Part shown: positions 57,116 through 60,862 of the stretch, one piece after another
Layout of the letters: every line of letters begins with the position of its first letter
How positions within the stretch are numbered: the first letter of the stretch is position 1
NCBI GenBank assembly: GCA_003209755.1
Contig: QCPD01000004.1
Span: 1-64,000, forward strand
DNA length: 64,000 bases
DNA from: Prochlorococcus sp. AG-436-C14
GTDB lineage: Bacteria > Cyanobacteriota > Cyanobacteriia > PCC-6307 > Cyanobiaceae
Reading direction: 5' to 3'
The notes under the pieces: generated by a model
Databases searched by the model: none
The model's input: the letters and a program-made list of their open reading frames with translations, nothing else
Told to the model about the DNA's origin: nothing
Translations under genes and position numbers: made by a program

Positions 57116-58777
57116 ATGGTTCAATACTATCTCGAAGGCAAAAAACTAAATAAAGTAGAAAAAAATAAAGCTGCTAAGGATGGACTCGAAATCGGAAAGG
57201 ATATAGACAAATTTGCTGCAATGGGATGGGAGCAAATGGATAAAACTGATTTAGAATTAAGATTGAAATGGTATGGGATGTTTTGGAGACCCAAAACCCC
57301 TGGAAAGTTTATGTTAAGGCTAAGAATACCTAATGGAATAATCAATGCAGAACAATTAAAAGTAATTGCATCAATTGTTGCGAGATATGGAGAGAATGGA
57401 AGTTGTGATATAACAACTAGGCAAAATATACAACTTAGAGGTATTTTGATTAGTGATTTGCCTGAGATATTAAATAGGTTAAAAAGAGTAAACATATCAA
57501 CAACTCAATCTGGATTTGATAATCCAAGAAATGTTACTGGAAATCCCATCGCTGGAGTTGATCCAGAAGAGATTATAGACACGAGGATATATACATCAAA
57601 AATGCAAGATCATTTAACTAATCAAGGTAAAGGAAACTCAGAATTTTCAAATCTTCCAAGGAAATGGAATACAGCTATAGCAGGCTCTAAAGATAATTTT
57701 CTTTTACATAATGATTTGATTTTTCATCCAGTTAAAATTAATGGGGTTTTAGGTTTTAGTGTTTGGATTGGAGGTATACTTTCATCAGTAATGAATGAAT
57801 ATGCAGTTCCGTTGAATGCCTGGGTTGAAGAAGAAAAAATTTATGAATTAACATCAGTTATTTTATCCCTCTGGAGAGATAATGGGGAACGTAATATAAG
57901 ACCTAAAGGTAGGTTTAGATTTTATTTAGATAAAATTGGGATTGAAAAATTTAGAGATCTTATCGAAAAACAATATGGAGCATTAAAAGAAGATCCAGGT
58001 TCAATATTTTCAGATAAACCAAGGTCATTTTTTGGGATTCATTCTCAAAAACAAAAAGGTAAATATTTTGCAGGAATTCATGTGCCAGTAGGCCGTCTTT
58101 TGGCTGAAGATTTACAAGATCTAGCAAGTATAAGCGAAAATTTTGGTGATAAAGAAATAAGACTTACCGAAGACCAAAATATTATTATTACTGGTATAGA
58201 TACAAATCTAATTGAAGAATTTAAGGGGCAATCTATCTTACAAAAGTTTCCATTAGAACCAGACACTATTACAGCAGGTACTGTTTCTTGTACTGGAAAT
58301 ACCTATTGTGGTTTCGCTCTCACAAATACAAAAGATCAAGCTTTAAAAATCTCACATGAATTAGACAAAGAATTAGATTTGAAAGACGAGTTAAAGATTC
58401 ATTGGACAGGGTGTCCTAATAGTTGTGGGCAAGCCTACATGGGAGGAATTGGTTTAACGGGTAAAAAAGCTAAAGACAAAGAAGGAAAAACCGTTGAAGC
58501 TTATGATATAAGCATTGGTGGATCACAAGGACCTAATTATAAATTAGGCGAATTAATTAAAAAATCTGTCCCTCAAGATGAACTAAAAGATGTACTAAAA
58601 GATTTACTTATCTCAAATTTTGATGCAAAAGAAAAAATATTTTTAAGTAAAAAATCTGGTTCATTAACTCGATTTATGAATTGGTTTAGTCCTCTTGGCA
58701 AAGATAAACCGCTGATTAATCGAGCTAATGGCAGCCCCGACATCTTTTCCAAATTTATGAATCGAATTAGTAATTAA
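57116..58777 (+). CDS. nirA: Ferredoxin-nitrite reductase
   Basis: Reduces nitrite to ammonium with six electrons from ferredoxin. The siroheme/[4Fe-4S] cysteines are C392 and C398 (CTGNTYC), C433 and C437 (CPNSC). The two nitrite/sulfite reductase half-domains are evident, with LRLRIPNGIINAEQLK and NGSCDITTRQNIQLRG in the first. The protein is 553 residues, about 40 more than I would expect from the freshwater cyanobacterial enzyme. The excess is a C-terminal tail from about residue 512 (GSLTRFMNWF onward). That tail is repeated in the following chimeric ORF. Its promoter gap has two NtcA-type boxes. Siroheme genes lie divergently and the transporter FocA downstream. Confidence 0.96.
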   Translation: MVQYYLEGKKLNKVEKNKAAKDGLEIGKDIDKFAAMGWEQMDKTDLELRLKWYGMFWRPKTPGKFMLRLRIPNGIINAEQLKVIASIVARYGENGSCDITTRQNIQLRGILISDLPEILNRLKRVNISTTQSGFDNPRNVTGNPIAGVDPEEIIDTRIYTSKMQDHLTNQGKGNSEFSNLPRKWNTAIAGSKDNFLLHNDLIFHPVKINGVLGFSVWIGGILSSVMNEYAVPLNAWVEEEKIYELTSVILSLWRDNGERNIRPKGRFRFYLDKIGIEKFRDLIEKQYGALKEDPGSIFSDKPRSFFGIHSQKQKGKYFAGIHVPVGRLLAEDLQDLASISENFGDKEIRLTEDQNIIITGIDTNLIEEFKGQSILQKFPLEPDTITAGTVSCTGNTYCGFALTNTKDQALKISHELDKELDLKDELKIHWTGCPNSCGQAYMGGIGLTGKKAKDKEGKTVEAYDISIGGSQGPNYKLGELIKKSVPQDELKDVLKDLLISNFDAKEKIFLSKKSGSLTRFMNWFSPLGKDKPLINRANGSPDIFSKFMNRISN

Positions 58778-58860
58778 TTCGATTTTATAAAAAATTATTT
58801 TTCTTACTTTTTAAATTTATGACTCAAAGTACTTCTCAAATGAGCTACGTCTTACCTAAA
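58658..58860 (+). repeat. Tandem duplication, copy 1 (nirA tail to chimeric ORF start)
   Basis: First unit of a 203-base tandem duplication. It covers the last 39 codons of nirA, the 41-base gap after it and the first 14 codons of the chimeric ORF. Positions 58694-58824 are identical, base for base by eye, to 58897-59027, at an offset of exactly 203. Outside that core the two copies still align but differ: roughly two-thirds identity on the left (36 bases) and four-fifths on the right (about 32 bases). Confidence 0.95.
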
Positions 58861-58980
58861 GATTCTATTTCTCGTTTCATGAATTGGTTTAACAACCTTG
58901 GCAAAGATAAACCGCTGATTAATCGAGCTAATGGCAGCCCCGACATCTTTTCCAAATTTATGAATCGAATTAGTAATTAA
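58819..58980 (+). CDS. Chimeric small ORF: FocA N-terminus fused to NirA C-terminal tail
   Basis: A 53-codon frame from ATG 58819 to TAA 58980. Residues 1-13 (MTQSTSQMSYVLP) parallel the FocA start (MTASASQMDYVLP). Residues 18-53 parallel the NirA tail, with the last 27 residues identical to NirA's last 27. It was produced by the tandem duplication. The frame is intact, and the FocA-like and NirA-like parts are in frame with one another. It has the same upstream sequence as focA, with no clear Shine-Dalgarno in either. Whether it is translated is unknown. It could be a relic, a spacer maintaining the operon, or a small peptide that binds NirA or FocA partners. Confidence 0.5.
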   Translation: MTQSTSQMSYVLPKDSISRFMNWFNNLGKDKPLINRANGSPDIFSKFMNRISN

Positions 58981-59063
58981 TTCGATTTTATAAAAAATTA
59001 TTTTTCTTACTTTTTAAATTTATGACTGCAAGTGCCTCTCAAATGGATTACGTCTTACCAAAT
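58861..59063 (+). repeat. Tandem duplication, copy 2 (chimeric ORF tail to focA start)
   Basis: Second unit of the 203-base tandem duplication. It covers the NirA-like end of the chimeric ORF, the 41-base gap and the first 14 codons of focA. The left flank carries several third-position differences from copy 1 in the FMNWF region, while the 131-base core, including both the coding tail and the non-coding gap, is identical. Each copy contains a TTTTATAAAA stretch that could act as a -10 element for the reading frame that follows. Confidence 0.95.
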
Positions 59064-59933
59064 GAATTGGTAGATGGAATGATTGCTGCAGGTGGAAAGA
59101 AATCATCTGTAAGCGTAAAAAACTTACTAATAAGAGGCTTCTATTCAGGAGCAATTTTAGGTTTAGCTACATGTCTTGCAATTACTATAGGCATTCAATC
59201 TGGGATGCCTTGGTTAGGTTCTTTCATATTTCCTTTTGGTTTTGCAAGTATTGTTCTTTTTGGAATGGAGCTTGTTACTGGTAATTTTGCTTTACTGCCT
59301 ATGGCTGTATGGGCAGGTAAAAGTTCTTGGACTGCAACTGTAAGAAATTGGCTATGGGTTTGGATCGGTAATTTTCTAGGTACAGCATTTGTTGCCGTAC
59401 TACTTTCAATTAGTTTATCTAGTGCTGGAAATGTAGATCCTTTAGCTGCTGCTGAAGGTGGAAAAGGATGGGCAGTTGTAGCAGCAAAAATAATAGCTAT
59501 ACATAAGGCAAACACAGTTATTAAATATGAAGCACTCGGAAGTACTGGTTTTTTCCTTGCATTTTTACGTGGAGTAATTGCAAACTGGCTGGTTTGTTTA
59601 GGTGTAACAATGGCACTTGTAAGTAAAAGTGTTCCAGGAAAGATACTTGCTTGCTGGCTACCTATAACTGCATTCCAAACAATGGGAATGGAGCACATAG
59701 TAGTTAATATGTTTTTGCATACAACTGGTCCTCTACTTGGTTCGGGTATTCCTTTTACAAAAGTAATTTTTTGGAATTTCTTGCCAGTAACGATTGGAAA
59801 TATTGTTGGAGGAATGGTATTTATTGGAATGCTTTTCTATAGCACCCACAAAACTCCTATCTCTAATGTTTTACCAGACGTAAAAGATGAAAAATTAGAA
59901 CGAGAGCTCGAAGCACAACTTGGTGCAAGATAA
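59022..59933 (+). CDS. focA: Formate/nitrite transporter family protein
   Basis: A 303-residue membrane channel/transporter of the FNT family, expected here to import nitrite. Six hydrophobic segments can be followed: GAILGLATCLAITIGI, FIFPFGFASIVLFGMELVTGNFAL, LWVWIGNFLGTAFVAVLLSI, FLAFLRGVIANWLVCLGVTMAL, ILACWLPITAFQTMGMEHIVVNMF and VTIGNIVGGMVFIGMLFY. The MELVTGNFAL and MGMEHIVVNMF motifs are FNT signatures. The N-terminal 13 residues are copied in the upstream chimeric ORF. A strong hairpin follows the gene. Nitrite specificity is inferred from the position between nirA and the other genes. Confidence 0.95.
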   Translation: MTASASQMDYVLPNELVDGMIAAGGKKSSVSVKNLLIRGFYSGAILGLATCLAITIGIQSGMPWLGSFIFPFGFASIVLFGMELVTGNFALLPMAVWAGKSSWTATVRNWLWVWIGNFLGTAFVAVLLSISLSSAGNVDPLAAAEGGKGWAVVAAKIIAIHKANTVIKYEALGSTGFFLAFLRGVIANWLVCLGVTMALVSKSVPGKILACWLPITAFQTMGMEHIVVNMFLHTTGPLLGSGIPFTKVIFWNFLPVTIGNIVGGMVFIGMLFYSTHKTPISNVLPDVKDEKLERELEAQLGAR

Positions 59934-60151: not shown

Positions 60152-60862
60152 ATGATTATTGAAGAAAATAATATATGGGATACAATTAATAACGCAAAAA
60201 AAACCAAGCCTAGCGCTGAATGGCTTAAGGATGCATACAATCCAAAGATTAACTTTGAGCTCAGGCAAGAAATCGCAATTCGCTTAGGACAATTATCAAA
60301 AGTAGGATGGATAAAAATAAAAGATCTACTTAAGACGTATGGAAATAAAGATGAACTAATCCTTGCTGCAGGACTTACTTATCAAGATGATGCCAAAGAA
60401 TGGCTCTTAAACCATCTTTATAGTGATGACACAATGAACATCAAAGTCGTAGAAGCTTTGGCTTGCTGGGGAGGAAGCTTACCGATTGAGCTTATTAAAA
60501 AAACATTAGAAGAAAAAAGTGCTCAAATGAAAATAGCTGGTTTAGAATTATTAAAATTCAAGGCTCATTTACTTTCTGATTTTGATTTACTTGACATAGC
60601 AAAATCTCCTTTAAATGATTTCAGAGAAGAGATAGTGATCAAAACACTGACAATCATTCAACGACGTGAAAGCTTAAATATCTGTGAAGCCATCCGCGAT
60701 GTAATACTAAAAGGCTCGGATAAATCTGCATACTATGGACTAATGGCTCTTGGTTCAATCGGTACTGAAATTAGTAAAAATATCCTATTTGATTTAGTTA
60801 AAAATTTAAAGAATGCTGAGCGCAAAGAACTTGCAAAAAAACAACTTGACTTTGAAATATAA
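60152..60862 (+). CDS. HEAT-repeat-like alpha-solenoid protein in the nitrite cluster
   Basis: A 236-residue soluble protein composed of successive helical pairs, resembling HEAT/Armadillo repeats. The segments NFELRQEIAIRLGQLSKVGWIKIKDLL, MNIKVVEALACWGGSLPIELIKKTL, FREEIVIKTLTIIQRRE and SAYYGLMALGSIGTEISKNILFDL each look like one repeat. No enzyme motif is visible. It is followed 6 bases later by the TrpD2-like gene. Solenoid proteins usually act as adaptors, so a role in assembling or regulating nitrite reduction is possible; this is inference. I do not recognise a named family. Confidence 0.7.
   Translation: MIIEENNIWDTINNAKKTKPSAEWLKDAYNPKINFELRQEIAIRLGQLSKVGWIKIKDLLKTYGNKDELILAAGLTYQDDAKEWLLNHLYSDDTMNIKVVEALACWGGSLPIELIKKTLEEKSAQMKIAGLELLKFKAHLLSDFDLLDIAKSPLNDFREEIVIKTLTIIQRRESLNICEAIRDVILKGSDKSAYYGLMALGSIGTEISKNILFDLVKNLKNAERKELAKKQLDFEI

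Follow-up and report, generated by a model that had tools for sequence, protein, structure and literature searches.

Between the nitrite reductase gene nirA and the nitrite channel gene focA (nitM) of Prochlorococcus sp. AG-436-C14 lies a 53-codon open reading frame (ORF) that resembles both of its neighbors. Is this ORF a by-product of local duplication or a gene in its own right, and if a gene, with which neighbor does it belong? An earlier note, made from the DNA alone, had described it as a new chimeric mini-gene, built by tandem duplication from the start of focA and the tail of nirA, and had argued from its open frame that it is not neutral debris. We examined this locus within a window of 64,000 nucleotides (the whole stretch of DNA analysed; contig QCPD01000004.1, positions 1 to 64,000) and compared it with related loci in cyanobacteria and their phages.

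A duplicated nirA-focA junction carries an in-frame chimera

All features described here are on the forward strand. nirA (57116-58777) encodes a ferredoxin-nitrite reductase of 553 residues whose NCBIfam match stops at residue 507, the remaining 46 residues being an added tail. This tail matches a profile of the small-protein family described below (3.5e-19) and carries two motifs, R1 (SLTRFMNWFS, 58661-58690) and R2 (DIFSKFMNRISN, 58739-58774). After a 41-nt spacer (58778-58818) comes the small ORF (58819-58980; 53 residues, MTQSTSQMSYVLPKDSISRFMNWFNNLGKDKPLINRANGSPDIFSKFMNRISN), then a second 41-nt spacer of identical sequence (58981-59021), and then focA (59022-59933), which encodes a formate/nitrite channel of 303 residues. 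The last 21 residues of FocA (59868-59930) are charged and are the counterpart of a segment that inhibits the NitM proteins of MIT9313 and CC9311 (PMC4390861). Downstream, a gene of 236 residues without Pfam or NCBIfam match (60152-60862) is probably the nirX named in PMC6370341 and PMC10119275, because nirX adjoins nirA where focA is missing; we found its homolog after nirA in 14 of 16 focA-less loci.

The tandem duplication claimed earlier is real. A single direct repeat of 195 nt (58668-58862 and 58871-59065; unit 203 nt, 92% identity, ungapped) spans the end of nirA and the start of the small ORF in its first copy, and the end of the small ORF and the start of focA in its second. The resulting frame is chimeric as described: residues 1-13 (58819-58857) match the FocA sequence MTASASQMDYVLP at 10 of 13 positions, supporting derivation from the focA start, and residues 19-53 match the last 35 residues of NirA at 33 positions, with NN in place of SP. 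The ORF has its own R1 (DSISRFMNWFN, 58861-58893) and R2 (DIFSKFMNRISN, 58942-58977), which fall in predicted helices at residues 14-26 and 43-52. An AT-rich palindrome, with 10-bp arms by eye, lies over the stop codons of nirA and the small ORF (58760-58784 and 58963-58987) with T-rich DNA 3' of it, and was duplicated along with the repeat unit.

The ORF is shared and selected within the genus

We searched 41 genomes of the genus, including the window's own, at the protein level and obtained matches in 22. Seventeen of these carry the full-length ORF, in 18 copies, and in five (G002, G003, G005, G006 and G007) it lies on a single contig; this recurrence excludes an assembly artefact of the window genome. 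None of the matches compared across these 41 genomes contains an internal stop. In G006 (locus L006) the small ORF is present in two tandem copies between nirA and focA, so the repeat unit expands. Four genomes (G012, G026, G028 and G030) match in the NirA frame only and have a nirA-focA gap of 42 bp, and the ORF of G010 is shorter and different. Unequal exchange is consistent with both the two copies of G006 and the four genomes without a free copy. Relatives with names, among them AG-402-P16 and AG-409-A10, are single cells, and on the basis of these names and the literature we take the clade to be LLI Prochlorococcus.

Using one ORF from each of the 17 LLI genomes, we obtained a dN/dS of 0.12 for the whole ORF, 0.18 for codons 1-19 (from few changes) and 0.10 for the rest, indicating purifying selection. 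The corresponding values in the same genomes are 0.10 for the last 34 codons of nirA and 0.11 for codons 1-20 of focA. Synonymous diversity, again from few changes in codons 1-19, is 0.056 there versus 0.25 in the part shared with nirA, pointing to a chimeric start that is younger than the surrounding alleles or constrained at the DNA level.

The copies in the small ORF and the nirA tail evolve in concert. With one ORF per genome and the second G006 copy excluded, the two copies differ at 5.5 positions per 102 nt within genomes versus 10.0 between genomes, and none of 20000 permutations gave a value as low. The spacers are identical to each other in 13 of 17 genomes, an observation to which we give no weight because 56 of 272 between-genome comparisons are identical as well. 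The earlier argument from the open frame thus holds for the outer codons, which are under selection, but is weaker for the shared part, which evolves in concert with nirA.

The ORF belongs to an old family of small genes upstream of focA

Searching 300 genomes of the family with the window ORF as a single sequence, we matched 115 genomes in 37 of 59 genera, two of them (G028 and G030) only in NirA. This search reads through stop codons and counts them, and they turned up only in two weak NirA-frame matches. We then assembled 100 loci from 99 genomes, comprising the matches outside the genus, G010 and a second copy in G136; these loci were picked by match and are uninformative on loci without a match, which were examined separately. 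Every locus has a free frame of at least 40 residues, 94 of them 44-49 residues long, and 99 start with ATG, the start being our own choice of the ATG nearest to the motif. The ORF lies between nirA and focA in most loci; the exceptions are five loci where NirA is unlinked and two copies, L110 and L116, that lie at a distance from both genes. Pairs within genera at moderate synonymous difference give a dN/dS of 0.30 overall, with individual genera ranging from 0.09 to 0.45, some of these values resting on a single pair.

The consensus of the free ORFs, MxxxxxxxDLFSRFVNWLSxxGxDKPxINRxxGxQDxFSRLMNRISG, contains the same helix motif twice, as R1 (DLFSRFVNWLS) and as R2 (DFFSRLMNRIS). Among 351 pairs of 11-column windows in alignment A1, the R1/R2 pair scores best (26.4, versus a mean of -10.3 and a standard deviation of 7.0), and none of 2000 column permutations matched it (best 13.7). 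In an earlier repeat test, 93 of 100 sequences could be parsed and 0 of 5000 shuffles reached the score, which is partly built in because the search patterns fix shared positions; the fixed-column test is free of that bias. Both motifs are amphipathic. For the window ORF, their hydrophobic moments were reached by 4 (R1) and 25 (R2) of 2000 shuffles, and for the consensus by 7 and 93 of 2000. An AlphaFold2 model of the window ORF, of moderate confidence (mean pLDDT 68.6, from nine near-identical sequences), has helices at residues 14-26 and 43-52 and a short one at 33-36.

The window ORF matches the family profile over R1, linker and R2 (3.3e-22, the window form being one of the 26 profile rows). 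In 292 genomes of the phylum, the profile matched 16, all of the family Cyanobiaceae. The window ORF has no match in Pfam or NCBIfam, and two free homologs gave only chance-level matches there (best E 0.059 and 0.074, far below the cut-offs). Judged by alignment and position, the 53-residue ORF is the rearranged, chimeric LLI version of a small gene that is old and conserved and lies just 5' of focA in marine picocyanobacteria.

Some copies depart from this pattern. Divergent copies lie far from nirA and focA, namely the second copy in G136 and a similar one in G159 (L110:1999-2130 and L116:2091-2207). A copy in G069 (contig C26, 16681-16794) contains two stops. In G127 (contig C1, 415577-416466; L092), focA is broken by stops and the adjoining small ORF is still open.

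The NirA tail most simply derives from the small gene

The earlier note had drawn the body of the ORF from the NirA tail. Against this, the same free ORF of R1, linker and R2 precedes focA in many genera whose NirA has no R1-R2 tail. NirA ends near the equivalent of residue 507 in many other genomes (for example, with FGAKPR), and outside the LLI set an R1 or R2 tail on NirA was detectable in only 12 of 100 loci, the tail being R1-like and lacking R2 in ten (profile E 1.1e-5 to 8.7e-3). The LLI tail consists of R1, linker and R2. In G010 (L025), which belongs to the same GTDB genus, the NirA tail is R1-like only and stands beside an ordinary free small ORF. The direction of descent given earlier is therefore largely reversed: because free ORFs precede focA where NirA has no R1-R2 tail, the LLI tail was, most simply, acquired from the small gene, in an inferred order of events. 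In that order, R1 of NirA would have recombined with R1 of the small gene, which gave NirA its R2; the segment from R1 through linker, R2 and spacer to the focA start would then have been duplicated in tandem, and the second copy would thereby have received its FocA-derived beginning. Comparison with the free ORFs thus indicates that in the LLI form the first 13 residues of the small gene are replaced by the FocA N-terminus. The duplication, the FocA-derived start and the selected frame stand; the birth of a new gene from the NirA tail does not.

R2 is found at the NirA C-terminus in four separate clades of the NirA tree: LLI, G191/G203, G089 and G579. An intact free copy was not found in G089, in G579 or in four LLI genomes; G579 is 68% complete, though we read its nirA-focA stretch. 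These fusions may also have spread by transfer between lineages. They illustrate that the helix of a small gene can pass into a neighboring enzyme by local duplication and recombination.

The small gene follows focA rather than nirA

FocA was matched in 134 of the 300 family genomes. A free small ORF is present in 112 of these 134, versus 1 of the 166 genomes without focA (Fisher p about 2e-58, relatedness ignored; the counts are of genomes, not independent events). The same holds among the 142 genomes with the focA-linked NirA type (E below 1e-200), where the small ORF occurs in 106 of 125 with focA versus 1 of 17 without. In the other 16 focA-less genomes, neither the locus nor a whole-genome profile search yielded a small ORF, and NirA has no R1/R2 tail. 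On a NirA tree built from 139 cores, these 16 loci are spread over at least four clades: the groups are LLI genomes with a second NirA type, genus g18 (probably high-light Prochlorococcus), G149/G196, G218/G294, and the weakly placed G065. In the exception, G159, the NirA match is partial (residues 4-397 of 501) and the small-ORF copy lies elsewhere, upstream of a gene resembling purT. Conversely, five genomes (G111, G122, G137, G158 and G165) have the small ORF directly before focA and a NirA of another type (E near 1e-140; 46% identity in G158). NirA ends 2 to 3.6 kb from focA in four of them, and in G137 none was found within the 5 kb fetched.

We also considered the 22 genomes with focA that lack a free match. 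Three carry the motif on NirA only (G028, G030 and G089), two encode a FocA without the charged C-terminus (G245 and G299), and two have ORFs found by profile only, divergent and full-length in G298 and truncated in G309. In the remaining 15 (ten of genus g9, and G094, G063, G115, G051 and G019), we found neither small ORF nor fusion; the side upstream of focA is cut off or incomplete in G019 and G051, and the absence in g9 comes from whole-genome searches of all ten genomes and reading of six loci. The FocA C-terminus is present in the match in all 15 and altered in the six g9 loci read. There it reads KDTKLARELAAELGAR or nearly so, a possible co-change. In genus g5, the profile matches 19 of 34 genomes, one of them (G579) in NirA, and in G574 and G582 nothing lies between nirA and a focA complete to its last residue. 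The small ORF is thus not strictly required for focA, none having been found in these 15 genomes, between nirA and focA of G574 and G582, or in the part read of a phage record that carries both focA and nirA.

Relatives of the small protein on phage-like contigs

A 48-residue relative, found by profile search, is encoded on two phage-like IMG/VR contigs (57.5 and 81 kb; L215:3001-3147 and L216:3001-3147). It is 63% identical to the first row of the profile and lies near psbA and a gene for family-A DNA polymerase. The contigs are identical over the 16 kb compared and perhaps represent one virus. No focA or nirA turned up in the two records, which may be fragments, making this a weak negative. 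A viral scan with the LLI form gave no match, nor did INPHARED phages searched with the viral form. A degenerate R1 pattern run over viral contigs hit five stretches, two on the same two contigs and three without a relative. The viral ORF matches phrog_1986 too weakly (0.0073) to be assigned to it.

The phage record that carries focA and nirA (L224) is a different one and resembles a scaffold described in PMC8115048. We found no small ORF in 8.3 of its 11.6 kb. A 62-residue ORF there (L224:4252-4440) overlaps the end of focA and has no profile match to the small protein.

Discussion

What might a protein of about 47 codons do for a channel that it nearly always accompanies? Full-length NitM of MIT9313 and of CC9311 is inactive in S. 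elongatus and becomes active when its C-terminus is removed, and NitM of CC9605 naturally lacks this segment; the authors inferred a reversible activating mechanism acting on the C-terminus (PMC4390861). That 2015 paper left open how the self-inhibited channel is switched on. In our set, both FocA proteins without the C-terminus (G245 and G299) come from genomes that also lack the small ORF, a single event since the two form one clade on the NirA tree. The LLI FocA C-terminus reads KDEKLERELEAQLGAR (59868-59930), versus the usual HDEKLERELAAELGAR.

A functional tie of the small ORF to FocA and NirA, on which the earlier note had speculated, is plausible. We consider it a serious possibility, though short of probable, that the small protein is translated and is a partner of FocA/NitM, most likely relieving inhibition of the channel by its own C-terminus, and that R1/R2 on NirA couples channel to enzyme. 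One helix might hold the charged C-terminus of FocA and the other NirA or another protomer; R1/R2 on NirA would then link channel opening to the enzyme that removes toxic nitrite. An activator fits better than an inhibitor, or else the peptide is unrelated to gating, because NitM without the peptide is inactive in S. elongatus. In its fullest form, which we hold only tentatively, the peptide would be the activator of NitM, its active helix would have been transferred repeatedly to nitrite reductase, confining channel opening to places where nitrite can be reduced, and the free cyanophage copy would open the host's channel during infection.

The alternative that survives best, somewhat doubtful in our estimation, is that the small protein acts on NirA alone, through its folding, activity or oligomeric state, and that the linkage to focA is operon habit. 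R1 or R2 does occur on the NirA C-terminus in several clades, and in WH7803 the small ORF shares its transcript with nirA (PMC9430850). However, 16 of the 17 focA-less genomes with this NirA type, all except G159, have neither small ORF nor R1/R2 tail, and five genomes keep the ORF with focA even though their NirA is of another type and non-adjacent. It is unlikely that R1 and R2 are helices that gather NirA and FocA at the membrane or on a scaffold, without gating the channel; two amphipathic motifs that are modular on NirA would suit such anchoring, but the published inactivity of full-length NitM is left unexplained. Action of the sequence in cis on focA, as spacer, processing site or translational coupler with the peptide irrelevant, seems improbable. 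The position before focA is fixed, and in WH7803 expression kinetics are separate from those of nirA, with RNA processing suggested by the authors (PMC9430850); against it stand conservation at the amino-acid level, R2 at the end of NirA, and a phage copy that has no focA close by. Finally, it is barely credible, and contradicted by the data, that the ORF is neutral debris of a recent duplication whose frame gene conversion with nirA and focA keeps open. The copies do evolve in concert (5.5 differences per 102 nt within genomes, 10.0 between them), but the ORF is open in 17 of 17 LLI genomes, with a dN/dS of 0.18 in codons 1-19, which are not common with nirA, and outside LLI it is open at a dN/dS of 0.30 where only 12 of 100 loci have an R1/R2 tail on NirA.

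As a candidate partner of the channel, the small gene has a setting in which it may matter: near the ocean's nitrite maximum, using nitrite is considered a core trait of LLI Prochlorococcus (PMC6370341). An operon gene of about 47 codons that is nearly always absent without the channel, and that is found fused to NirA in separate clades, offers a candidate for the activator that experiment can test.

The conserved gene is partly known already, and what is new is the LLI form. SynWH7803_RS12335, of 44 residues, lies between nirA and nitM of Synechococcus WH7803, is co-transcribed with both and strongly induced, and has two predicted helices (5-17 and 34-43) and similarity to NirA of CB0101 and NATL2A; its function is not given in the portions of PMC9430850 available to us. 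The free small ORFs resemble it in position, length class and two helices, and from these features and the reported NirA similarity they are apparently of the RS12335 type. The window ORF likewise is a free ORF between nirA and focA with a profile match and two helices joined by a linker. The LLI form differs from RS12335 in its FocA-derived start and in a body common with the NirA C-terminus. We found no paper in the open-licence literature that links the WH7803 ORF with C-terminal inhibition of NitM.

Two other identities were considered and rejected. NirP1 is also a small cyanobacterial protein tied to nitrite reductase, but it is mostly 76-86 residues long with a predicted beta fold, and one Cys and three Trp are conserved in 485 homologs; it is reported to be absent from Prochlorococcus (PMC10907346). 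The window ORF has 53 residues, no Cys and one Trp. The ORF is not nirX either, as the 16 focA-less nirA loci lack the small ORF and 14 of them have the homolog of the 236-residue gene.

The NitM system of PMC4390861 concerns the same channel and operon and, as far as the available text goes, names no factor; the tie to the small ORF is our own. The closest precedent for the proposed control is FocA/PflB of E. coli, an FNT channel that is controlled through direct contact by an enzyme acting on the channel's substrate (PMC5572259). There, PflB is reported to contact the N-terminal helix of FocA, and the parts of that paper available to us describe no small peptide.
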